DNA of 64,000 nucleotides from Burkholderiales bacterium (GTDB lineage Bacteria > Pseudomonadota > Gammaproteobacteria > Burkholderiales > Burkholderiaceae_C): positions 1 to 64,000 of the forward strand of contig JACRAZ010000060.1 in the NCBI GenBank assembly GCA_016213205.1. Reading direction: 5' to 3'. Shown piece by piece: positions 52,630 to 63,391 of the stretch. Under the pieces are notes generated by a model that had not been told where the DNA came from, did no database searches, and saw only the letters and a program-made list of their open reading frames with translations. Numbering within the stretch: the stretch's first letter is position 1; each line of letters begins with the position of its first letter. Both the position numbers and the translations under genes were made by a program.

Positions 52630-54753
52630 CTAAAACCGGTAGCTGGCCTGCACCGACAGTGCTCTGCCAGGCAGCGGAAAGTCGAACGGCAGCGCGCCAG
52701 GGGCAAAGCTGGGCTCCCGTGCATTGGTGTTGAACAGGTTGCGCACCGTGGCCGAGAGATCCCACTGCCGACTGCCGCCCAGCTTCCGCAGTGTCAGATC
52801 CACCAGGGTGTAGTCGGCAATGGGGGGCCTGGGATCACCAGCCTCGCGCCGCCGGTCGGCCACCCAGTTGATCTGCGCGTCGGCCTCCCAGCCCGACGCA
52901 AATCGCCAATCGCCCCGCAAGTACAGGTGGTGGTGCGGTGCGATGCCCGCGTCCTGTCTATTGGTCTTGTCGGTCGAGCGTTGGTAGCCGTAGCTGGCGG
53001 AAAGGCGCAGGTCGCGCCGCGGGTTCCACTGCACATCCACTTCCAGCCCGCTGCCCACCTGGCGACCCGCATTTCGTGCTGTCGAACCGGTGGTGGGGTC
53101 GGCGTTGGGCACCTGGCGCAGGATGTCCCTCATGCGGTAGTGGAAGATGTTTGCACCCAGGCTCAGCGTGCCGGACGGCTGCCAAGCCAGGGCGGCCTCC
53201 CAGGTGCCAATGCGCTCGGGTTGCACGGCGGGATTGCCCAGCGTCACAGGGTTGTTGATGGCATACAACTCGACGAATGAGGGGGCACGAAATGCGGCGC
53301 CATACAGCAGCTTGGCGGTAACGTTGTAGGCCATGTCCCACACCAGTGCAAGCCGCGGATTGGTGGTGGCGCCGAAGTCCGAGTAGCGGTCGTGTCGCAA
53401 GCCAGCGGTCAGAGTCCAGTCGCGGGCCACTGACCACTCGTCCTGCAGGTACACGAAGCCCAGGTCGCGGCGGCGTGGGTCCAGGTAGGGCGTGCTGAGC
53501 GACACATCGACCAATGCGCCCGTTGGCGCCGGCACGTTGCCGATGCCAGGCACAAACACCAGCGTGAAGTTCTTGCTTTCGCCGATGCGGTACACATCCT
53601 CCTGCGCGACACCCAGGCCGATACGCAGGCGGTGCCCAGCCCACCCGGTGTAGACGGCAGCACCTGTCAAGCGGGCGTGGCGCTCCCACTTGGACGGCGC
53701 ACCCACCATGCCCTCGGGAAACGGCCCCAGCAGCACGGTGCCTGGCGGCAGCAGCACCAGGTGCGATCGTGTGGCCATGTCGAAGTAGCTGGCCTGCGCC
53801 GAGAACTCCCAGTCTTCAACGAGATCGCGGGTCTCGTAGGTCAAGTCGGCCGTGAGTCGCCGGGTGGCGCTGCGTCCATCTCGATCCAGCGCGCCGGCCA
53901 CACCGGAGCCGCTGCCCACGTCATCGCGGTGCTTGTAGCCGGCCCGAAAGCGCCACGCACCGTTGGCGATGTCCAAATGGCCGTCCACGGCCTTGCGGCC
54001 CAGGCTCACCGGTCCCGGGGCCAGGGAGGCCCGCGTGCCGAAGATGGCGTCGTTCGCGGTCTGGGCATCAGCCTCGACGACGCGCCGGTGCCCATCGGTG
54101 CGGCCCACGCCAAGGTAGGCCGCCACCTCGAAGCCGCCAGCCTTGCCGCCGTACTGGAGCCATGCATCGGCGGTCTTGAACGAACCCGCACGAACACCCG
54201 CCTCGGCCCCGGCCAGATCGCTCGCCGTCTTGGTGACGATGTTGATGACACCCGAAAACGCATCCGCACCGTACAGCGCCGAGCCTGGGCCGCGGATCAC
54301 TTCGATGCGGGCAATGTTCTCCACCGGCATCCCGCCCCACACGTCACCGCGGTTGCCGAGGTAGACACTGGTGATCGGCACGCCGTTCACCAGCATCAGC
54401 ACCTGCGGGTTGTATTGCGTGGCGATGCCGCGGACGATGTAGATGGGCTTGTTGTCGTACGGCAGCAGGTGCGCCACCGTCAGGCCGGGAACGGCCTGCA
54501 GAACCTCGTCCAGATCGGTGGCACCGGTGGCCCGAATGTCGGCCGCGGTGATGACGGTGGCCACCGCAGGTGCGCGCCGCACCGCCAGGCGCGAACCAGT
54601 GGCGATGCTGACAAAGGACTTGTCCCCGAATGCCTGTGCGAGGTCCTCCTCGTCGCCAGGCTTTGCGGCTGCTTGGCATGTGCCCAAAGCCACCTGGAGT
54701 ACCACCAGGCCCGCCAGGCCCCCGAGACCCTTCTGACTGCGTCGACCAACCAC
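52630..54753 (-). CDS. TonB-dependent outer-membrane receptor 1
   Basis: A roughly 707-residue TonB-dependent receptor. After a signal peptide ending near Gln-Ala-Ala-Ala comes the plug domain (RRAPAVATVITAADI, then LDEVLQAVPGLTV, NIARIEVIRGPGSALYGADAFSGVINIVTK), then a long barrel and the C-terminal aromatic end VQASYRF. I prefer the GTG at 54753, with AGGGGAC just upstream and a compact signal peptide; an ATG at 54801 is the alternative. It is the last gene of an operon with two citrate-synthase-like genes, an SDR and a ThDP enzyme, so it may import that pathway's substrate. A paralogue lies at 61274. Confidence 0.92.
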   Translation of the reverse strand: MVGRRSQKGLGGLAGLVVLQVALGTCQAAAKPGDEEDLAQAFGDKSFVSIATGSRLAVRRAPAVATVITAADIRATGATDLDEVLQAVPGLTVAHLLPYDNKPIYIVRGIATQYNPQVLMLVNGVPITSVYLGNRGDVWGGMPVENIARIEVIRGPGSALYGADAFSGVINIVTKTASDLAGAEAGVRAGSFKTADAWLQYGGKAGGFEVAAYLGVGRTDGHRRVVEADAQTANDAIFGTRASLAPGPVSLGRKAVDGHLDIANGAWRFRAGYKHRDDVGSGSGVAGALDRDGRSATRRLTADLTYETRDLVEDWEFSAQASYFDMATRSHLVLLPPGTVLLGPFPEGMVGAPSKWERHARLTGAAVYTGWAGHRLRIGLGVAQEDVYRIGESKNFTLVFVPGIGNVPAPTGALVDVSLSTPYLDPRRRDLGFVYLQDEWSVARDWTLTAGLRHDRYSDFGATTNPRLALVWDMAYNVTAKLLYGAAFRAPSFVELYAINNPVTLGNPAVQPERIGTWEAALAWQPSGTLSLGANIFHYRMRDILRQVPNADPTTGSTARNAGRQVGSGLEVDVQWNPRRDLRLSASYGYQRSTDKTNRQDAGIAPHHHLYLRGDWRFASGWEADAQINWVADRRREAGDPRPPIADYTLVDLTLRKLGGSRQWDLSATVRNLFNTNAREPSFAPGALPFDFPLPGRALSVQASYRF

Positions 54754-54828
54754 CCAAGTCCCCTGTACTACGCGAGGTGCGGGCGATCCTCGCACGGTCA
54801 TCCGGCGAGGTCAACGCGAGCGGCGGAT

Positions 54829-55641
54829 TCAGCGCGGCCGATCTGCCCAGCGGCGCGGACCCTGTCCCTCATACGCCACATCTGCGCAGGGCGTCGGGAA
54901 CAAGGTGCCCGCAGGCTTGTCACTGGCTTCGATGTAGCACGGCACCATGCCGGCCAGGAAGCAGGGAAACAGGAACAGCGTGTACTCTCGTTGCGACATG
55001 CCCAAGTCAGCCGCCAGGGCCGCGCTCATGCCGCCATAGTTCAGCTTGAGACGGTGCCGCTTCATCAGCGTCAGGTCCTGCACCTGCAATGCCAGCCGGA
55101 TGTACGGCATCTGGTCGAAGCCCAGCTTGCGCAGCAGCCGCATCATCGGTGGCATGCGCTCATCCACCGAGGTCAGCGGTCGGCCGTAGCCGGGAACGCC
55201 CCGCATGTGCTCCAGTTCCTGCGCCACGCAGTCGGCCAACGCGTCGCCCGTATCGAGCCGTGCACGTGCGCGCAGGAAGAAGTCGATCGACTTGGTCAGC
55301 ACGCCGCTGCCGTAGATGCCGGCCTCGGACACGGCCAGCGCCGCCGACAGCCCCAGCGCGCCGGTGCTGCGTGTGCTGCCAGCCAGGCCGGCCTCGCGGT
55401 TGTTCCAGAGGCGCGCATCTGGAAAGCTGGTGTAGGTCCAGATCGCATGCATCAGCTCGATCTGCGCCGGCGTGTAGCGCTTGCCGGTGATGCCGAAGAC
55501 ATACAACGCCATCCAGTCCATGTCCGCCAGGTCGGCATGCAGGTCGTGGCCGCGGAACACCGCCCGCACGCCCGGCACGAAGCCACCGACCCGGCTGCGA
55601 AGCCTTCCGGCGGCGGCCTGCAGCAGTTCAGGGCCGCTCAT
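54829..55641 (-). CDS. Citrate synthase/citryl-CoA lyase-like protein A
   Basis: A 270-residue protein with the short citrate-synthase/citryl-CoA-lyase fold. The C-terminal half shows EHMRGVPGYGRPLTSVDER where citrate synthases have G-F/Y-G-H, LNYGGMSAALAADLG where they have the Asn-Val-Asp-Phe catalytic segment, and an end VAYEGQGPRRW like the usual terminal arginine region. By eye the first active-site His (IYGSG), the second His (GYGRP) and the catalytic Asp (NYGG) all appear replaced. It may be a divergent enzyme or a partner of the similar protein encoded just upstream, with which it overlaps by four bases (ATGA). Substrate is unknown. Confidence 0.75.
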   Translation of the reverse strand: MSGPELLQAAAGRLRSRVGGFVPGVRAVFRGHDLHADLADMDWMALYVFGITGKRYTPAQIELMHAIWTYTSFPDARLWNNREAGLAGSTRSTGALGLSAALAVSEAGIYGSGVLTKSIDFFLRARARLDTGDALADCVAQELEHMRGVPGYGRPLTSVDERMPPMMRLLRKLGFDQMPYIRLALQVQDLTLMKRHRLKLNYGGMSAALAADLGMSQREYTLFLFPCFLAGMVPCYIEASDKPAGTLFPTPCADVAYEGQGPRRWADRPR

Positions 55642-56471
55642 GCTGTGGCCTCCGCGCTTTGCGGCGCCCGCAGCCCGGGGTCGTTCTCGATCTCGATCGG
55701 GTAGAACGGGAAGCGCTTGTGGCCGTACTCGGCCTGTTCCAGCGCATGAGCGGCGGCACCGGGCAGGCGCAGCAGCAGGTAGAGCATCTCGCCCTGCGTC
55801 GGGCTGAAGCCCAGGTCGCACAGGGCCGCGGCAGCCACGCCACCCATGGCCAGCGGCGCGCCGGCCAGGTCCTCCAGTGCGAGGCGGTGCTCGCGCAGCC
55901 AGGGCAGCAGCGGCCCCGGGCTGCCCGGGGCCAGGTGCTCGAGCAGTTGCAGCACAGGGGTCGGCGTGCTCACGCCATGCGGATCGAAACCCGGTGCGTG
56001 GCCCGCCTTCGGCCACGTGGAGCCGGCTGTGTCGGCGCGGCGCTGCACCTCGAGCCAGGCCGACCAACGGTCGCCGCGAAGCTCACAAGCCAACCAGCCC
56101 TGCATGGCCAGGTACACCTCGCGCGCGCCGGTGTACTGGCCGGCGCCGACGCTCAAGGCCGCGATCAGGCTGGATGCAGCGGTTGAGCCGCACACGCCAC
56201 CGCACATCGCCGCGTGCACCGAAGCGTCGCGTGGGCCCGGGTTGGCCAGAGCCACTGCCAGCGCTTCCAGCAGATCGGCCTGCACAGCCGACGGTGCATG
56301 GCCGCGCAGCATCAGGTACAGCATGTCCACCCAACGTGCCTGGCCGAGCATGTCGCCGAACACATCGTAGCCATGGCAGTAGGCCGCGCGGGTGGCGAAC
56401 GGGTTGTTCGGCTCCGGTTCCTCGCGCCAGATGCGCGTGTGGATGGGCTCGGTCTTTGCCAGATCGCTCAT
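55638..56471 (-). CDS. Citrate synthase/citryl-CoA lyase-like protein B
   Basis: A 277-residue protein of the same superfamily as its overlapping neighbour. Family features include the N-terminal TRIWREEPEPNNPF, GYDVFGDMLG and VDMLYLMLRGHAPS (typical of the large domain's first helices) and a central AALSVGAGQYTGAREVY segment, where citrate synthases have the first catalytic histidine in an HGGA motif; here the position is Tyr. The C-terminal FPFYPIEIENDPGLR differs from citrate synthases. The pair encoded back to back suggests a hetero-oligomer. It follows the SDR gene by 10 bases. Confidence 0.72.
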   Translation of the reverse strand: MSDLAKTEPIHTRIWREEPEPNNPFATRAAYCHGYDVFGDMLGQARWVDMLYLMLRGHAPSAVQADLLEALAVALANPGPRDASVHAAMCGGVCGSTAASSLIAALSVGAGQYTGAREVYLAMQGWLACELRGDRWSAWLEVQRRADTAGSTWPKAGHAPGFDPHGVSTPTPVLQLLEHLAPGSPGPLLPWLREHRLALEDLAGAPLAMGGVAAAALCDLGFSPTQGEMLYLLLRLPGAAAHALEQAEYGHKRFPFYPIEIENDPGLRAPQSAEATA

Positions 56472-56481
56472 CGAGGCACCC

Positions 56482-57231
56482 TCACTGCTGGCTCATGCCG
56501 CCGTCGACGATGATCTCTTCGCCCAGGATGTACGAGGCATCGTCCGAGGCCAGGAACAGCGCGGCCTTCGCCACTTCGTCCGCCCGGCCGAAACGCTGCA
56601 TCGGCGACTTGGCGGTGATCTGCGCCTTCACGGCATCGGTCACTTCGGGCGGCAGGCCGAAGCGGCCGTGGATCGGTGTGCTGATCGGACCGGGGCTGAT
56701 CGCATTCACGCGGATGCCGCGGCCCACGAGCTCCAGCGCCAGCGTCTGCACCATCGAGCGCAGGCCGGCCTTGGTGGCGCCGTACACGCTCATCATCGGC
56801 GTGCCCACGCGGTTGGCGATCGAGGTCGTGACGATGATCGAGGCGCCCTGCTGCATCAGCGGCAGCGCCTTCTGGATGGTGAAGAAGGCGCCCTTGAGGT
56901 TGACCGACACCATGGCGTCGAACATCGCTTCGCTGACATGGTCCACCGGCGCGGCCAGCGCGACGCCGGCGTTGACCACGAGCGTGTCGATCCGGCCACA
57001 GCGCTGGCCGACATCGGCCATCAGCGCCTCGATCGCCGGCACGCTGCCGGCGTCGCTTTGCAGCGTCAGCACCTGGTCGCCCAGGTCGGCGCGTGCCGCC
57101 TCCAGGCTGGCCGCATCGCGGCCGGTGATCACGAGGTGGGCGCCCTCGTCATGGAACAGTCGCGCGATCGCGAGGCCGATACCGCTGTTGCCGCCGGTGA
57201 TCAGGGCGGTCTTGCCTGCCAGTCGTTGCAT
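56482..57231 (-). CDS. Short-chain dehydrogenase in the ThDP/citrate-synthase-like operon
   Basis: A 249-residue classical SDR. Glycine motif TGGNSGIGLAIA (about residues 12-23), NAG (about 87-89), catalytic Ser in TTSIANR and YGATK (about 149-153), and the C-terminal GEEIIVDGGMS are intact. A CGGAGAAA ribosome site precedes the ATG. It lies 35 bases after the ThDP enzyme and 10 bases before citrate-synthase-like B. It may reduce or oxidise the hydroxyacid or ketone made by its neighbours; specificity is not predictable. Confidence 0.9.
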   Translation of the reverse strand: MQRLAGKTALITGGNSGIGLAIARLFHDEGAHLVITGRDAASLEAARADLGDQVLTLQSDAGSVPAIEALMADVGQRCGRIDTLVVNAGVALAAPVDHVSEAMFDAMVSVNLKGAFFTIQKALPLMQQGASIIVTTSIANRVGTPMMSVYGATKAGLRSMVQTLALELVGRGIRVNAISPGPISTPIHGRFGLPPEVTDAVKAQITAKSPMQRFGRADEVAKAALFLASDDASYILGEEIIVDGGMSQQ

Positions 57232-57266
57232 CGATTTCTCCGGTAGGGTGATGAGGCTTGAGATGT

Positions 57267-59024
57267 CTAGGGGGCGGCCCGCAGCGCCTTCATGCGCACG
57301 TTCAGCGGCGGCACCTCGTCGGGGTCGACCCGCACGTCGAGCAGGGTCGGCCCCTTGCGGCGCAGCACGGCGGCGAAGTCCAGTTGTTCGAAGTCCTCGG
57401 GGCTACGGATCACGAAGCCCGGAATGTCCATGGCGGCGGCCATCAGGCGGAAATCCACCGCCGGCAACTGGTGTCCGATGGATTCGGCGCCGGCCAGCCG
57501 CTGGCCGTGCCGCACCATGCCCAGCGCGCGGTCGTTCAGCACGACGAATACCACTGGCAGCTGTTCCTGTGCGGCCACGGTGATCTCCTGGCCGTTCATC
57601 AGGTAGCTGCCGTCGCCGGTGATGCACACCACCGGGCAGCGCGGGTTGGCCCGCGCGATGCCGATGGAGGCACCGATCGCCCAGCCCATCGGCGCAAAGT
57701 CCATCGTGACGCGCAACCAGCTGGCCGTGCCCGAACGGCGCTCGTTGGCCGCTTCGGACACCGGCTGGCCCACGCGCAGCAGCCGGCGGTCATGCGGTTG
57801 CAGGTAGTGCACCGCCCAGGCCGTGCTGTTGCCGGTGTCGGCCACGAAACGCGTGTTGGCCGGGCAGCGTTCGGACAGTTCGCGCATCAATCGTTGCGGC
57901 TTGATGGGCCCTGCGTCGGAATTGAACATCTCGGGTGCCTGGAGCATGGCCTGCGGATCCTGCTGCTCCGACTTGATCGGCACCGCCGGGCGGGCCGTTG
58001 CCGTTTCACGCACCACCTGCACCAGCCGTTCGCACACGGCCTTGAGCCGGCCGTGCAGGTGCATGCGCGCCATCGGCGACCGCATCAGGTTCTCGTCGCA
58101 ACTGTCGATGTGCACCATACGGCTGTTGAGCACAGCCTCGCACCAGCCGCCGCTGTTCCATTCGCCCAGTCGGGTGCCGAACGCGAGCACCAGCTCGGGC
58201 TCGCTGCGCAGCACCGCCTCGGCGCTGGCGTGGCCGCCGAAGCCGAACACGCCGCGAAAGCGCCGATGTCGCGGGTTGATGAAGCCCTTGCCGTCTGGCG
58301 TGCACAGAAACTGCGCGTCGGTGAGTTCGACCAGCGCAAGCACCTCTTCGATGGCATCCCCACAGCCACCGCCGATCAGGAACACCGGCCGGCGCACCTG
58401 CCCGAGTTCGGCCGCCAGCCGGCGCACGGCGGCTTCGTCCACCAGGTCGGCCTTGCGCATGAGCAGCGAATTCAGATCGTAGGCCTGCGGCGCCCGATCG
58501 ATTGGGCTGCGCAGCACGTCCAGGGGGATGGACAGGTGCGCCGGCCCCTGGGGCATTTGGTAGGCCTGCATCAGCGCGCTGACGAGCTTGTGCTCCAGTT
58601 GCTCCGGATGCGATACAAGCGAGTTGTACCGAGTGCAATGCCTGAACATGCCCACCGTGTTGATGCCCGTGCAGGCCGATTCCTGCAGTGCGCCTTTTCC
58701 GAACGAAGGCAAGGGCGGCTGGCCGGTGATCACCAGCATCGGCACGCCGTTGTCGTGCGCGCAGGCCACGCCCGTCAACAGATTGGTCGCGCCAGGGCCG
58801 GATGTCGCGACACAGACACCCAGGCGACCCGTCTCCCGAGCGTAACCATCGGCCATGAAAGCCGCGCCACTCTCATGGCGTGCCAAGACATGCCGCAGGC
58901 CTCCGCGACGCTCGCTCCGTGCCATGGCGTTGTACAGCGGCTCGACCGCCCCACCCGGGATGCCAAACACGTGCTCGACCCCGATGCTCTCAAGGTACGC
59001 CACGATCAGGTCCGAGGCATCCAT
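57267..59024 (-). CDS. Thiamine-diphosphate enzyme (acetolactate synthase-like)
   Basis: A 585-residue ThDP enzyme of the acetolactate synthase/oxalyl-CoA decarboxylase superfamily. The catalytic Glu is in LARHESGAAFMADGYAR (about residues 45-61), followed by TSGPGATN. The central domain includes VFLIGGGCGDA, and the ThDP-Mg motif GDGSYLMNGQEI with ALGM is in the C-terminal domain. It may be a C-C lyase, synthase or decarboxylase of 2-oxo or 2-hydroxyacyl substrates. No regulatory subunit (IlvN) is adjacent, which argues against a housekeeping acetolactate synthase. The ATG at 59024 was chosen; GTG codons upstream (to 59105) are possible. It heads the five-gene operon. Confidence 0.88.
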   Translation of the reverse strand: MDASDLIVAYLESIGVEHVFGIPGGAVEPLYNAMARSERRGGLRHVLARHESGAAFMADGYARETGRLGVCVATSGPGATNLLTGVACAHDNGVPMLVITGQPPLPSFGKGALQESACTGINTVGMFRHCTRYNSLVSHPEQLEHKLVSALMQAYQMPQGPAHLSIPLDVLRSPIDRAPQAYDLNSLLMRKADLVDEAAVRRLAAELGQVRRPVFLIGGGCGDAIEEVLALVELTDAQFLCTPDGKGFINPRHRRFRGVFGFGGHASAEAVLRSEPELVLAFGTRLGEWNSGGWCEAVLNSRMVHIDSCDENLMRSPMARMHLHGRLKAVCERLVQVVRETATARPAVPIKSEQQDPQAMLQAPEMFNSDAGPIKPQRLMRELSERCPANTRFVADTGNSTAWAVHYLQPHDRRLLRVGQPVSEAANERRSGTASWLRVTMDFAPMGWAIGASIGIARANPRCPVVCITGDGSYLMNGQEITVAAQEQLPVVFVVLNDRALGMVRHGQRLAGAESIGHQLPAVDFRLMAAAMDIPGFVIRSPEDFEQLDFAAVLRRKGPTLLDVRVDPDEVPPLNVRMKALRAAP

Positions 59025-59543: not shown

Positions 59544-60842
59544 CTACACGCCCACATCGCGCTGCGCTTTCTGCCCACCATCGGCCGCTCGCAGGACACG
59601 CTGCGGAAATGGGATCTCCACCCCGTCGGCCTGCAAGGCCTTCAGCACCGCCAGGTTCACGTCGCTGCGCACGTTGGTCACGCCGTTCTCGGTGTCACCG
59701 ATCCAGAACGCCAAGGTCAACTCCAGTCCATCGGCCGCAAAGCTGCTGAGCTGCACGCTCGGCGCCGGGTCCGGCAGCACGCGGGCCACGGCGGCCATCA
59801 CCGCCCGCAGGCGCGGGATCAGCCTGTCCAGGTCGGTGCCGTAGGCCACCTGAAGCACCGTGGTCACGGCCACACGCGGGTCGGCCAGGGTGCTGCTCTC
59901 CACCCGCTGCGTGATCAACAGCTCGTTGGGCACGATGGACTCGCGGCCGTTGGGCGCGCGGATCACGGTGTAGCGGGTGGTGATGTCGGTGATGCGGCCC
60001 TCGAAGTTGTCGACCTTCACCATGTCGCCGATGCGCACCGAGCGCTCGGCCAGGATCACGAAGCCGGAGACGTAGTTGGAGGCGAGCTTCTGCAGCCCGA
60101 AACCGATGCCCACGCCCACCGCCCCGCCGAGCACCGAGAGTGCACCCAGCGGAATGCCAGCCGCCGACAACGCCACCAGCAGCCCCACCAGCAGCAGGCC
60201 GGCACGGGTGGCGTTGGCGGCGATCTTGCGCACCGAAAGGTTCACGCCACTGGCAGCCATCAGCCGCGCCTCGATGCTCGCCGACAGCCAAAGCACCAGC
60301 ACCAGCACCACCGCTGCGCTGAGCACCCCTTCGAGCAAGCCGCGCAGCGAGACCTCGCTGCCGGCGATGCGCCAGCGCACGCCTTCCAGCTCGGCCAGCA
60401 CCAGCGGCAGCAGGTCGGTCAGCCACAGCACCAGTCCCAGCCACACCAGCCAGGACACCGTTCGCTCCAGCGCCCGCACCAGCCTGGAGCCCGGAAACGC
60501 AGCATGCAGCACCCGCACCACCACGCGGATGACGGCCAGGCTCGCCAGCACCGGCAACGCAAGGTTCAGCAGCGTCAAAGGCATCACGCCGCCGAGGAGT
60601 GCCCGCGCCAGAGCCACCAGTCCCAATGCGACCAACGGAAACAGCACGCCATCAAAGCCGCGGTCACCCATCAAGATGGGGCCGGTGACACTGGCTTCGC
60701 CCATGGTGGCGGACTTGGACGCCGAACGCAGGAACCACACCGTCGCCCATGCCAGCAACAGCATGGCGACGATGACACCCGCTTCCATCAGTGCCGTGGG
60801 GCGCAGCAGGGTCCCGACAACTCTCAACAATGAATCAAACAT
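59544..60842 (-). CDS. MscS-family mechanosensitive channel
   Basis: A 432-residue MscS-type channel. Several hydrophobic segments precede the pore helix and beta domain: GIPLGALSVLGGAVGVGIGFGLQKLASNYVSGF (about residues 230-262), then the conserved ERSVRIGDMVKVDNFEGRI and TRYTVIRAPNGRESIVPNELLI, and a cytoplasmic alpha/beta domain. Compared with E. coli MscS (286 residues) it carries extra N-terminal membrane helices. The ATG at 60842 was preferred; an ATG eight codons upstream is possible and neither has a clear ribosome site. It protects against hypo-osmotic shock. Confidence 0.9.
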   Translation of the reverse strand: MFDSLLRVVGTLLRPTALMEAGVIVAMLLLAWATVWFLRSASKSATMGEASVTGPILMGDRGFDGVLFPLVALGLVALARALLGGVMPLTLLNLALPVLASLAVIRVVVRVLHAAFPGSRLVRALERTVSWLVWLGLVLWLTDLLPLVLAELEGVRWRIAGSEVSLRGLLEGVLSAAVVLVLVLWLSASIEARLMAASGVNLSVRKIAANATRAGLLLVGLLVALSAAGIPLGALSVLGGAVGVGIGFGLQKLASNYVSGFVILAERSVRIGDMVKVDNFEGRITDITTRYTVIRAPNGRESIVPNELLITQRVESSTLADPRVAVTTVLQVAYGTDLDRLIPRLRAVMAAVARVLPDPAPSVQLSSFAADGLELTLAFWIGDTENGVTNVRSDVNLAVLKALQADGVEIPFPQRVLRAADGGQKAQRDVGV

Positions 60843-61273
60843 AGGCGCCAGGAGAAGTGGGGGCATTGCGCGCAGCGCCTGGCCACACGACAGACAGTCT
60901 TTGCATCCTAGTGCAACTCATGCGGGCAGGCACGAGTCGAGCGGGTTGGCGGAATTCTCGGCCCGAGAGTCTGGAGGCCATTGCAAGGCCGACATCGTGG
61001 TGCGCAAACGTCAAAGGTAGGCACTCTCGTTTTGCCGTTTACTTTGCGAGCTAGCAATTGTCGTGGATGGATCGATCGACACAGGTGCACCTGCAATGGC
61101 CGCAGGCCTTGACTCTGTGTACCTGGGTCCGGGCGTTGATGGCGAAGACCTCGGATCCACACGCCGAGGTTGTGCGAAGCCGGCGGTCGCCTTGATCTCA
61201 GCACAGCACGTCAGAATCGTGCGCGATCGCACGTGGCCCCAAGGACCGGATCACCCCTGTCGAGGCCGGCAGC
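60843..61273. other. Gene-free region between TonB receptor 2 and MscS
   Basis: About 430 bases downstream of TonB receptor 2 and upstream of the MscS start. I see no gene, RNA or strong repeat. Short open frames here have no ribosome sites or family features. It must hold the mscS promoter, but no box stands out. Confidence 0.4.
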
Positions 61274-63391
61274 CTAGTGCCGGTACACCGCCTGCAGCGA
61301 CACCGCACGGCCGGCCTGCGGCAGGTCGTAGGGCAGGCTCTGCCCGGGGGCCAGGCTGGGTTCGCGCACATCGGCATCGAACAGGTTGCGCACGCTGGCC
61401 GACAGCGCCCATCCCCTGCCGGGTTGGGGCGTGTGCAAGGCCAGGTCCACCGTGGTGTTGTCGGCGATGCGGGGCCGTGGGTCGCCCACCGCACGGTGGC
61501 GGCCACCCACGTGGTTGAGCTGGGCACTGGCCTGCCAGCCACCGCCGGCGCGCCAATCGGCCCGGGCCCACAGGTGGCGGCGTGGCGCATAGGCGGCATC
61601 CTGGCCCGTGGCGTCGTCGATCGAGCGTTGCAGCGCCAGGTGGCCCGACAGCCGCAGCCCGCGCCGCGGCTGCCACACGGCCTCCAGCTCGAAGCCGCGG
61701 CCTTGCTGCGCGCCGGTGTTGCCGAACACCGCCGAGCCTTCGGCGATGCGGATCATGTCGCGCAGGCGGTGGTGGTACAGGCTCAGGTTCAGCATCAGGT
61801 CGCCACGCGCCTGCCAGGCGAACGCGGCCTCGATCGACTGGATCGTCTCGGGCCGCACCGCCGGGTTGCCACTGGCCACCGGGTTGACGCCGTACTGTTC
61901 GTTGAACGATGGCGCCCGGAACGCCCGGCCGACCAGCAGCTTGCTGGTGAGGTTCAGGCTCGTGTCCCACACCAGCGCCAGGCGCGGATTGGTCGTGCTG
62001 CCGGCATCGGTGTAGCGGTCGTGCCGCACGCCGGCGGTGAGGGTCCAGTCCCGGCGGAAGCTCCATTCATCCTGCAGCAGCAGGTAGTTCAGCCGGCGCC
62101 GGTGCGGCCCGATGAACGATTGCGCCACCGGCGCCTCCTGCACCTGCCCGCCGGGCAGGGGCACCGGCAGCCCGATCAACGGACCCGATGCCACGAGGCT
62201 GAAGTTCTTCAGCTCGCGGCTGGCGTACAGGTTAAGGTCGTCGTGGCCCAGGCCGATGCGCACCAGGTGCCCGGCCGCGGCGCTGTAGGTGGTGACGGCC
62301 GACAGCCGGCGCTGGCGTTCCCAGGTTTCCGGCGCACCGATCATGCCCTGAGGAAACGCGCCGCCGAACGCACCGGGCGGCAGCAGCTGGAACGGCACCG
62401 GAATGGTCTGCTCGAAGTGCAGCAGGCTGGCCGTGAGTGCAAGCGTCCAGCCCGGCCCCAACACGATGCCCTGGCGCGACAGGTCGCTCACGACGCGCCG
62501 CGAGCGCGCCCGCCCGAGCGGGTCGAGCGCGCCGGCCACGCCGGTGCCGCTGCGCACGTCGTCGCGCAGCTTGTAGTGGGTGCGCCAGCGCCAGGCCTCC
62601 AGGGCCAGGTCCAGCCCGGCATCCACCGCGTGCAGGCCGTTGTTCATCGGGCCCGGTGCCAGGCTGGCGCGGGTGGCGAACAGTGCGTCCAGCGCCGTCT
62701 GCGCATCGGCCTCGATGGTGCGGCGGTAGCCGTCGGTGCGGCCCAGGCGCAGGTAGGCCGCCAGCTGCAGCGGCCCCCAGGTGCCGCCGTGGTGCACCCA
62801 GCCCTCGCGTGATGCGAACGAGCCCGCACGCACGCCGATCTCGGTGCCCGGTGCATCCTGCGCGGTCTTGGTGACGATGTTGATCACGCCGGAATAGGCA
62901 TCTGCGCCGTGCAGCGCCGAGCCCGGGCCGCGGATGACCTCGATGCGCGCGATGTTCTCGACCGGCAGCCCGCCCCACACGTTGCCGCGGTTGCCCACCA
63001 GCAGCGTGGTCACCGGCACGCCGTTGTGCAGCATCAGGGTCTGCGGGTTGAACTCGCTGTAGACGCCGCGGATCACGTACAGCGGGCTGTTGGCCTGGTT
63101 GCTGCGGCCCACGTGCAGGCCGGGCACCGATTCGAGCACCTGGTCCAGCTCGGTGGCGCCCATCGCGGCAATGTCCGCGGCCGTGATCACGGTGGCCACG
63201 GCCGGTGCCCGGCGCAGGGGCTGGCGGCTGCCGGTGGCCAGGCTGATGCCGGCCCTGTCGGCCAGCACGGCGGCGAGTTCGTCGTCCTCAAGGGCCGGTT
63301 GCGCATGGCTCTGGCCGCCGAGCAGCCCCACCAGGGCCATGCCGGCCAGCACCGCGGCGCGGCGTGGGTGGCCCTGTCGGCGGCTGGCCAC
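61274..63391 (-). CDS. TonB-dependent outer-membrane receptor 2
   Basis: A 705-residue TonB-dependent receptor, paralogous to the one at 52630 throughout its length. The GTG start gives a signal peptide ending Ser-His-Ala-Gln. The plug has RRAPAVATVITAADI, LDQVLESVPGLHV and NIARIEVIRGPGSALHGADAYSGVINIVTK; the barrel ends VSLQAVYRH, an unusual final His instead of Phe. It starts 12 bases after the histone-deacetylase-like gene, so it may be in that operon. The substrate is unknown; similarity to receptor 1 suggests related ligands. Confidence 0.92.
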   Translation of the reverse strand: MASRRQGHPRRAAVLAGMALVGLLGGQSHAQPALEDDELAAVLADRAGISLATGSRQPLRRAPAVATVITAADIAAMGATELDQVLESVPGLHVGRSNQANSPLYVIRGVYSEFNPQTLMLHNGVPVTTLLVGNRGNVWGGLPVENIARIEVIRGPGSALHGADAYSGVINIVTKTAQDAPGTEIGVRAGSFASREGWVHHGGTWGPLQLAAYLRLGRTDGYRRTIEADAQTALDALFATRASLAPGPMNNGLHAVDAGLDLALEAWRWRTHYKLRDDVRSGTGVAGALDPLGRARSRRVVSDLSRQGIVLGPGWTLALTASLLHFEQTIPVPFQLLPPGAFGGAFPQGMIGAPETWERQRRLSAVTTYSAAAGHLVRIGLGHDDLNLYASRELKNFSLVASGPLIGLPVPLPGGQVQEAPVAQSFIGPHRRRLNYLLLQDEWSFRRDWTLTAGVRHDRYTDAGSTTNPRLALVWDTSLNLTSKLLVGRAFRAPSFNEQYGVNPVASGNPAVRPETIQSIEAAFAWQARGDLMLNLSLYHHRLRDMIRIAEGSAVFGNTGAQQGRGFELEAVWQPRRGLRLSGHLALQRSIDDATGQDAAYAPRRHLWARADWRAGGGWQASAQLNHVGGRHRAVGDPRPRIADNTTVDLALHTPQPGRGWALSASVRNLFDADVREPSLAPGQSLPYDLPQAGRAVSLQAVYRH

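Follow-up and report, generated by a model that had tools for sequence, protein, structure and literature searches.

A thiamin diphosphate enzyme, a pair of citryl-CoA-lyase-like proteins and TonB-dependent receptors: part of a widespread module and a candidate bacterial communication system

Five genes lie close together on the minus strand at positions 52630-59024 of contig JACRAZ010000060.1 of a Burkholderiales bacterium, within a stretch of 64,000 nt that was analysed as a whole and is called the window here. They encode a thiamin diphosphate (ThDP)-dependent carboligase, a short-chain dehydrogenase/reductase (SDR), two proteins distantly resembling citrate synthase (CS), termed CS-A and CS-B, and a TonB-dependent receptor. 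The five genes are part of a widespread and apparently undescribed module, which is a candidate for a new bacterial communication system. The operon and the genes upstream of it are as follows.

57267..59024, minus strand: ThDP-dependent carboligase, 585 aa (PF02776, PF00205, PF02775)
56482..57231, minus strand: SDR oxidoreductase, 249 aa (PF13561, PF00106), an optional part of the module
55638..56471, minus strand: CS-A, protein of predicted citryl-CoA lyase fold, 277 aa, catalytic Asp and His gone
54829..55641, minus strand: CS-B, protein of predicted citryl-CoA lyase fold, 270 aa, both catalytic His and the catalytic Asp gone
52630..54801, minus strand: TonB-dependent receptor 1, 723 aa (PF00593, PF07715), alternative start GTG 54753
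59544-60866: MscS-type channel gene, between the ThDP gene and the gene of TonB receptor 2
61274..63391, minus strand: TonB-dependent receptor 2, 705 aa (PF00593, PF07715), of the same receptor family as receptor 1

An earlier note on this DNA had described five minus-strand genes with gaps of 35, 10, −4 and about 75 bases. The first three values were reproduced from the coordinates: 35 bases separate the ThDP stop (57267) from the SDR start (57231), 10 bases separate the SDR stop (56482) from the CS-A start (56471), and CS-A and CS-B overlap by 4 bases (55638-55641). The last gap, counted from the CS-B stop at 54829, is 75 bases if receptor 1 begins at GTG 54753, which is probably the start used, and only 27 bases if it begins at ATG 54801. 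The ThDP gene has an alternative start as well, GTG 59105, which would lengthen its product to 612 aa. A promoter and terminator scan gave no signal exceeding that of shuffled sequences.

Recurrence of the gene set

The distribution of the module was examined in 399 genomes of the order, its own included. CS-A has matches (E up to 1e-3) in 41 of them, and in 18 of these, the window's own among them, the match is nearly full-length with at least 50% identity; the ThDP enzyme (E up to 1e-120) is found in 21 genomes and a periplasmic binding protein that recurs at these loci (≥148 bits, a threshold of our choosing) in 24. The three proteins occur together: CS-A and the ThDP enzyme are both present in 18 genomes, with no genome having CS-A only and three having the ThDP enzyme only (Fisher p 2e-28); the ThDP enzyme and the binding protein are both present in 20, with one and four genomes, respectively, having only one of them (p 8e-29); and CS-A and the binding protein are both present in 18, with none having CS-A only and six having the binding protein only (p 2e-26), all three p values being uncorrected for shared ancestry. 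With E up to 1e-100, 40/369 genomes of the class and 9/388 of the phylum encode the ThDP enzyme (each count including the window's own genome), and the surroundings of the gene were retrieved for all 46 further genomes.

In total, 78 stretches were annotated with profiles built in this analysis. The locus counts rest on these profile searches because codon-bias gene calling assigned CS genes to the wrong strand or missed them in several loci. Two sets of loci, referred to by L numbers, were counted. The 20 CS-selected loci (the window, L002, L003 and L034-L050) contain the ThDP enzyme and the CS pair in every case, a TonB receptor in 19, the binding protein and a HAMP sensor in 16 each, and a sulfotransferase in two. 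The 49 ThDP-selected loci (L060-L062 and L071-L116) contain the CS pair in 36, a TonB receptor in 30, the binding protein and a HAMP sensor in 27 each, a sulfotransferase in two, and any profile of the kinase, GGDEF, EAL or sensor kind in 38. Part of the incomplete loci lie at contig ends (e.g. L072, L083 and L107).

The set of ThDP, SDR, CS, CS and TonB genes that the earlier note had singled out is thus uncommon but conserved, recurring in many genera, with one amendment: the ThDP enzyme, the CS pair and the receptor recur, whereas the SDR gene, tried as a core gene, was rejected, being present in just 6/20 CS-selected and 3/49 ThDP-selected loci. We count six core parts: the ThDP enzyme, CS-A, CS-B, the TonB receptor, the PF04392 binding protein, and the HAMP sensor with kinase and/or GGDEF-EAL domains. 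All six are found together in 16/20 CS-selected and 23/49 ThDP-selected loci, where the synthase genes are linked to both receptor and signal-transduction genes. For comparison, one stretch of about 20 kb, placed at hand-picked round coordinates, was taken from each of 20 module genomes. Kinase, GGDEF, EAL or sensor profiles are present in 18/20 module loci versus 3/20 control stretches of the same genomes, and the module-type TonB receptor, binding protein and sensor are each present in 18/20 versus 0/20. As it recurs in many genera, the gene arrangement exceeds what chance would give.

Some loci carry additional genes. Two ThDP and two TonB genes are found in L093 and two TonB genes in L087. 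By eye, L096-L100, L103-L107 and L109 have STAS-like/response-regulator or chemotaxis-like flanking genes in a shared order, and in L084, L089, L092, L035 and L101 the ThDP gene is near apparent 2-oxoacid or succinate dehydrogenase genes (by eye or from shared clusters), one of which, a lipoamide-dehydrogenase-type gene of L084, was identified by Pfam.

The ThDP enzyme and the CS-A/CS-B pair

The best sequence matches of the ThDP enzyme in the PDB are BbmA and CsmA, followed by acetolactate synthase I. CsmA and BbmA (PDB 8x3z, 8x3x) are α-hydroxy-β-keto acid synthases (original publication: Nat. Chem. 2025, doi 10.1038/s41557-025-01822-y); their gene context differs from that of the window. 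G507 of the window enzyme occupies the position of BbmA G484 and lines up with the Phe of the PDB entry for BbmA G484F. This Gly is kept in 50/50 ThDP enzymes of CS-bearing loci that passed a length and score filter, and the closest other ThDP enzyme of the genome has Gln in its place. Since a Gly is conserved at the BbmA G484 position, the substrate pocket of the enzyme is probably larger than that of acetolactate synthase. The enzyme shares with acetolactate synthase of the IlvB type the ThDP domains, the catalytic Glu (E51) and the GDG...N motif, but scores only 308 bits against the acetolactate synthase family TIGR00118, under the cut-off of 538, and its operon is without IlvN: none of the five operon proteins matches an IlvN/ACT family, the rest of the genome not having been searched for IlvN. 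The absence of an IlvN partner, remarked upon in the earlier note, is therefore true within the operon.

CS-A reaches 20.2 bits against the Pfam family Citrate_synt, under the cut-off of 27, and CS-B matched no Pfam family. The NCBIfam citryl-CoA lyase models gave 59.5 bits (cut-off 261) for CS-A and 34.9 bits (cut-off 212) for CS-B. AlphaFold produced confident models of both proteins (mean pLDDT 92.3 for CS-A and 91.5 for CS-B), which in a VIA-align comparison covering Foldseek's top chains aligned best to the citryl-CoA lyase parts of known structures. According to these models, CS-A and CS-B possess the citryl-CoA lyase fold. In the structure-alignment rows they are only 15-20% identical to the citryl-CoA lyase of Hydrogenobacter thermophilus (PDB 6hxp) and the ATP-citrate lyase module, and unlike citryl-CoA lyase they are two distinct, always co-occurring subunits in which the catalytic residues are gone.

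The loss of the catalytic residues was followed in 54 CS-A and 54 CS-B sequences. The catalytic Asp is missing from all of them. The site of the second catalytic His is occupied by Arg in 54/54 CS-B sequences and by a residue other than His in 53/54 CS-A sequences; a His lies at most two columns away in 31/54 CS-A sequences. Within two columns on either side of the first His site, a His is found in 0/54 CS-B and 8/54 CS-A sequences. That both proteins seem to lack the usual His and Asp residues, a point on which alignments with intact citrate-synthase sites would have spoken against the earlier note, is hence borne out. Distant CS-A relatives of the same order (L022-L033, 24-34% identity) have a GFGH-type His in 12/12 and the Asp in 9/12 cases.

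Other polar residues are conserved, namely E17, R81 and H242 of CS-A and R77, N81, R154, R162 and R263 of CS-B, and they fit either kind of pocket, catalytic or regulatory. Both proteins are present in 56/56 related loci that hold either one. CS-A and CS-B probably form a hetero-oligomer, as the earlier note had surmised, with a conserved pocket of its own, and this pair may possibly carry out new chemistry.

Three loci appeared to contain gene fusions. A natural CS-A/CS-B fusion in L046 was rejected, as the joined frame crosses an apparent frame-shifted tail with unresolved bases. A ThDP-CS fusion suggested by a long open frame in L095 was likewise rejected, as the profiles place ThDP and CS-A next to each other; a similar frame in L072 has no CS-A in the profile annotation. 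With regard to a viral or plasmid origin, PHROGs returned no match for CS-A or CS-B, and a plasmid search made with CS-A alone returned none.

Receptors, sensors and variant loci

TonB receptor 2 of the window shares 55% identity with receptor 1 and 60% with the module receptor of Albitalea, and likely, although not certainly, belongs to the module. The binding protein was assigned to PF04392 in L003, L034 and L113 and was recognised as a profile match beside the sensor in L050. The sensors adjoining the binding protein in L003 and L050 comprise HAMP, HisKA, HATPase, REC, Hpt, GGDEF and EAL domains, and that of L041 is a HAMP-GGDEF-EAL protein. The genome of the window encodes, on contig 102 (C102:73104-76239), a 58% identical binding protein, with no Pfam match at E up to 1e-8, and a HAMP/HisKA/HATPase/REC hybrid kinase without GGDEF or EAL domains. 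On their strand, these two genes directly follow those of an HlyD/AcrB-type efflux pump (L058:5092-12740); the pump might export the product of the module, or the adjacency might be a coincidence. In L110 the enzyme genes are neighboured by a different type of signalling pair, in which a Ser/Thr-kinase-AAA-GAF-histidine-kinase protein is accompanied by a response regulator of the LuxR type. The same gene clusters recur in L111 and L112; no TonB receptor was recognised in L110.

A periplasmic binding protein thus adjoins a membrane sensor kinase in L003, L050 and the genome of the window, and the arrangement with a hybrid kinase in L003 and L050 is reminiscent of autoinducer-2 (AI-2) sensing by LuxPQ. 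Unlike LuxPQ, the module has a PF04392 protein, a TonB receptor in front of it, often a GGDEF-EAL output, and a synthase other than LuxS. The α-hydroxyketone signalling systems CqsA/CqsS and Lqs would share with the module a sensor kinase that reads an acyloin-type product, but CqsA and LqsA are pyridoxal phosphate enzymes, and those systems are not known to have a TonB receptor or binding protein.

Loci that depart from the common gene set fall on both the enzyme and the receptor side. Four of them have no CS pair while retaining the TonB receptor and the binding protein. In L060 and L061 a sulfotransferase gene is found beside the TonB gene, in L060 also adjoining the ThDP gene, and no match was listed for either genome in the order-wide CS-A search; in L086 a methyltransferase gene and in L099 a FabH-like ketosynthase gene lies between the ThDP and TonB genes. 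All three kinds of replacement, namely sulfotransferase, methyltransferase and ketosynthase III, are of biosynthetic type. L036 and L038 have sulfotransferase genes in addition to the CS pair. Conversely, at the cut-off used, four genomes of the order (G037, G071, G120 and G195) have no ThDP enzyme but do encode the binding protein and sensor, and in 3/4 of them a TonB gene adjoins those of the binding protein and sensor. Two of these three receptors, those of L064 and L065, share 75% and 72% identity with that of the enzyme-bearing L034. The receptors of L038, L060 and L061, which are all the loci with sulfotransferase and TonB genes, form one branch (support 0.965) that extends across three families, and this suggests that receptors may be matched to products.

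A module that may make and sense a signal

We favour, with moderate confidence, the reading that these loci encode a module for both producing and sensing a small extracellular signal, to which the operon would contribute the enzymes and the receptor. We adopt this reading because (i) the binding protein adjoins a signalling protein, (ii) the enzymes replacing the CS pair are of biosynthetic types, and (iii) receptor-side genes exist without the enzymes. The co-occurrence of the genes across the order, the joint presence of the six core parts, the contrast with the control stretches, the shared branch of the sulfotransferase-locus receptors, the signalling pair of L110 and the resemblance of the ThDP enzyme to α-hydroxy-β-keto acid synthases count in the same direction. 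In the proposed mechanism, the ThDP enzyme would join small 2-oxo acids in pairs, or one 2-oxo acid with an aldehyde, to form an acyloin-type core, i.e. an α-hydroxy-ketone or an α-hydroxy-β-keto acid. The CS-A/CS-B pair would modify this core, perhaps with an acyl-CoA, and in the genome of the window the SDR would adjust its redox state. The product would exit the cell and re-enter the periplasm via the TonB receptor or receptors, where the binding protein would present it to the membrane sensor, a HAMP protein with histidine kinase and/or GGDEF-EAL domains. We infer the direction (synthesis and not breakdown), the chemistry, the export and the signalling role, and we regard the product of the enzymes as a likelier receptor ligand than their food.

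Several observations weigh against this reading. The binding protein and kinase of the window's own genome are encoded on a separate contig, and L002 has neither of them in its 20.8 kb stretch. Among the ThDP-selected loci, 13/49 are without the CS pair, 19/49 without a TonB receptor and 11/49 without any signalling profile, and contig ends explain only part of these gaps. The ThDP gene lies in a long stretch with no CS pair or TonB gene in L062, L078, L089, L092 and L101, four of which (L062, L089, L092 and L101) look like other contexts, and in the stretches of L077, L082 and L110-L112 the CS pair is present but a module-type TonB gene is not. The matching of receptor and product is not mirrored by the other trees, as two of the three sulfotransferase loci fall together in the ThDP tree and none in the binding-protein tree. 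The product, its export route and a response to cell density are predictions, and the signalling neighbours would also fit the sensing of a foreign compound.

The last point leads to the alternative that the module is catabolic, with the TonB receptor importing a compound, the binding protein and sensor reporting it, and the ThDP enzyme and CS pair cleaving a C-C bond. TonB receptors usually import external compounds, sensors commonly adjoin uptake genes, and L084 has a lipoamide-dehydrogenase-type gene and apparent other subunits of a 2-oxoacid dehydrogenase upstream of the module. However, no inner-membrane importer or CoA ligase is evident among the first 30 recurring neighbour families, not all of which were checked against Pfam; what replaces the CS pair is biosynthetic in type, and some genomes have the binding protein and sensor but no ThDP enzyme. 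We consider this alternative unlikely, and the pathway for a bulky external carbon source proposed in the earlier note is disfavoured, as the binding protein and HAMP sensor belong to the module. A metallophore or other secreted molecule re-imported via TonB, its use being controlled by the binding protein and sensor, would agree with the family resemblance of the receptors to those for siderophores, heme and B12 and with a layout of biosynthetic and TonB genes that is typical of metallophores. This explanation is improbable: the family scores of the receptors lie far under the curated cut-offs, and among the first 30 neighbour families no ABC permease or ATPase is evident beside the binding protein, whose neighbour is instead a sensor kinase or GGDEF-EAL protein.

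The remaining alternative retains the module and makes the CS pair a non-enzymatic heteromer, a regulator or scaffold that takes the place of IlvN and senses CoA or a carboxylate. The loss of the citrate-synthase catalytic residues from both proteins, their constant co-occurrence, usually adjoining the ThDP gene, and the operon's lack of IlvN are what such a role would predict. Yet the CS-less loci L060, L061, L086 and L099 have other enzymes near the ThDP gene instead of the pair, which suggests a catalytic role for it, and we deem the regulatory role improbable as well.

If a make-and-sense module is what these loci encode, a broader proposal follows that we regard as plausible, if somewhat doubtful: a new and widespread class of signals with a ThDP-made core, an exchangeable second enzyme (the CS-A/CS-B heteromer, a ketosynthase III, a methyltransferase or a sulfotransferase) that gives each lineage its variant, a matched set of TonB receptor, binding protein and kinase or cyclic di-GMP sensor, receptor-only eavesdroppers, and a new active site in the CS pair. 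As the earlier note had stated for the gene set, no description of the module was found in the open-access literature, most subscription journals lying outside that search. If true, the module would be a cell-cell signalling system unlike, to our knowledge, those of the acyl-homoserine lactone (AHL), AI-2, diffusible signal factor and CqsA types; it would be found across many genera of one phylum and would employ a class of ThDP synthase that we had not previously met in signalling, together with a CS-fold pair without the classic active site. One report states that Dechloromonas aromatica has no recognisable AHL synthesis genes (PMC2907700). Another attributes to Azoarcus sp. BH72 one or more unidentified signal molecules or metabolites, and lists three TonB-dependent receptor genes among the differentially expressed genes (PMC3262810). 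If the signalling reading holds, open cases such as the Azoarcus sp. BH72 signal would become testable.

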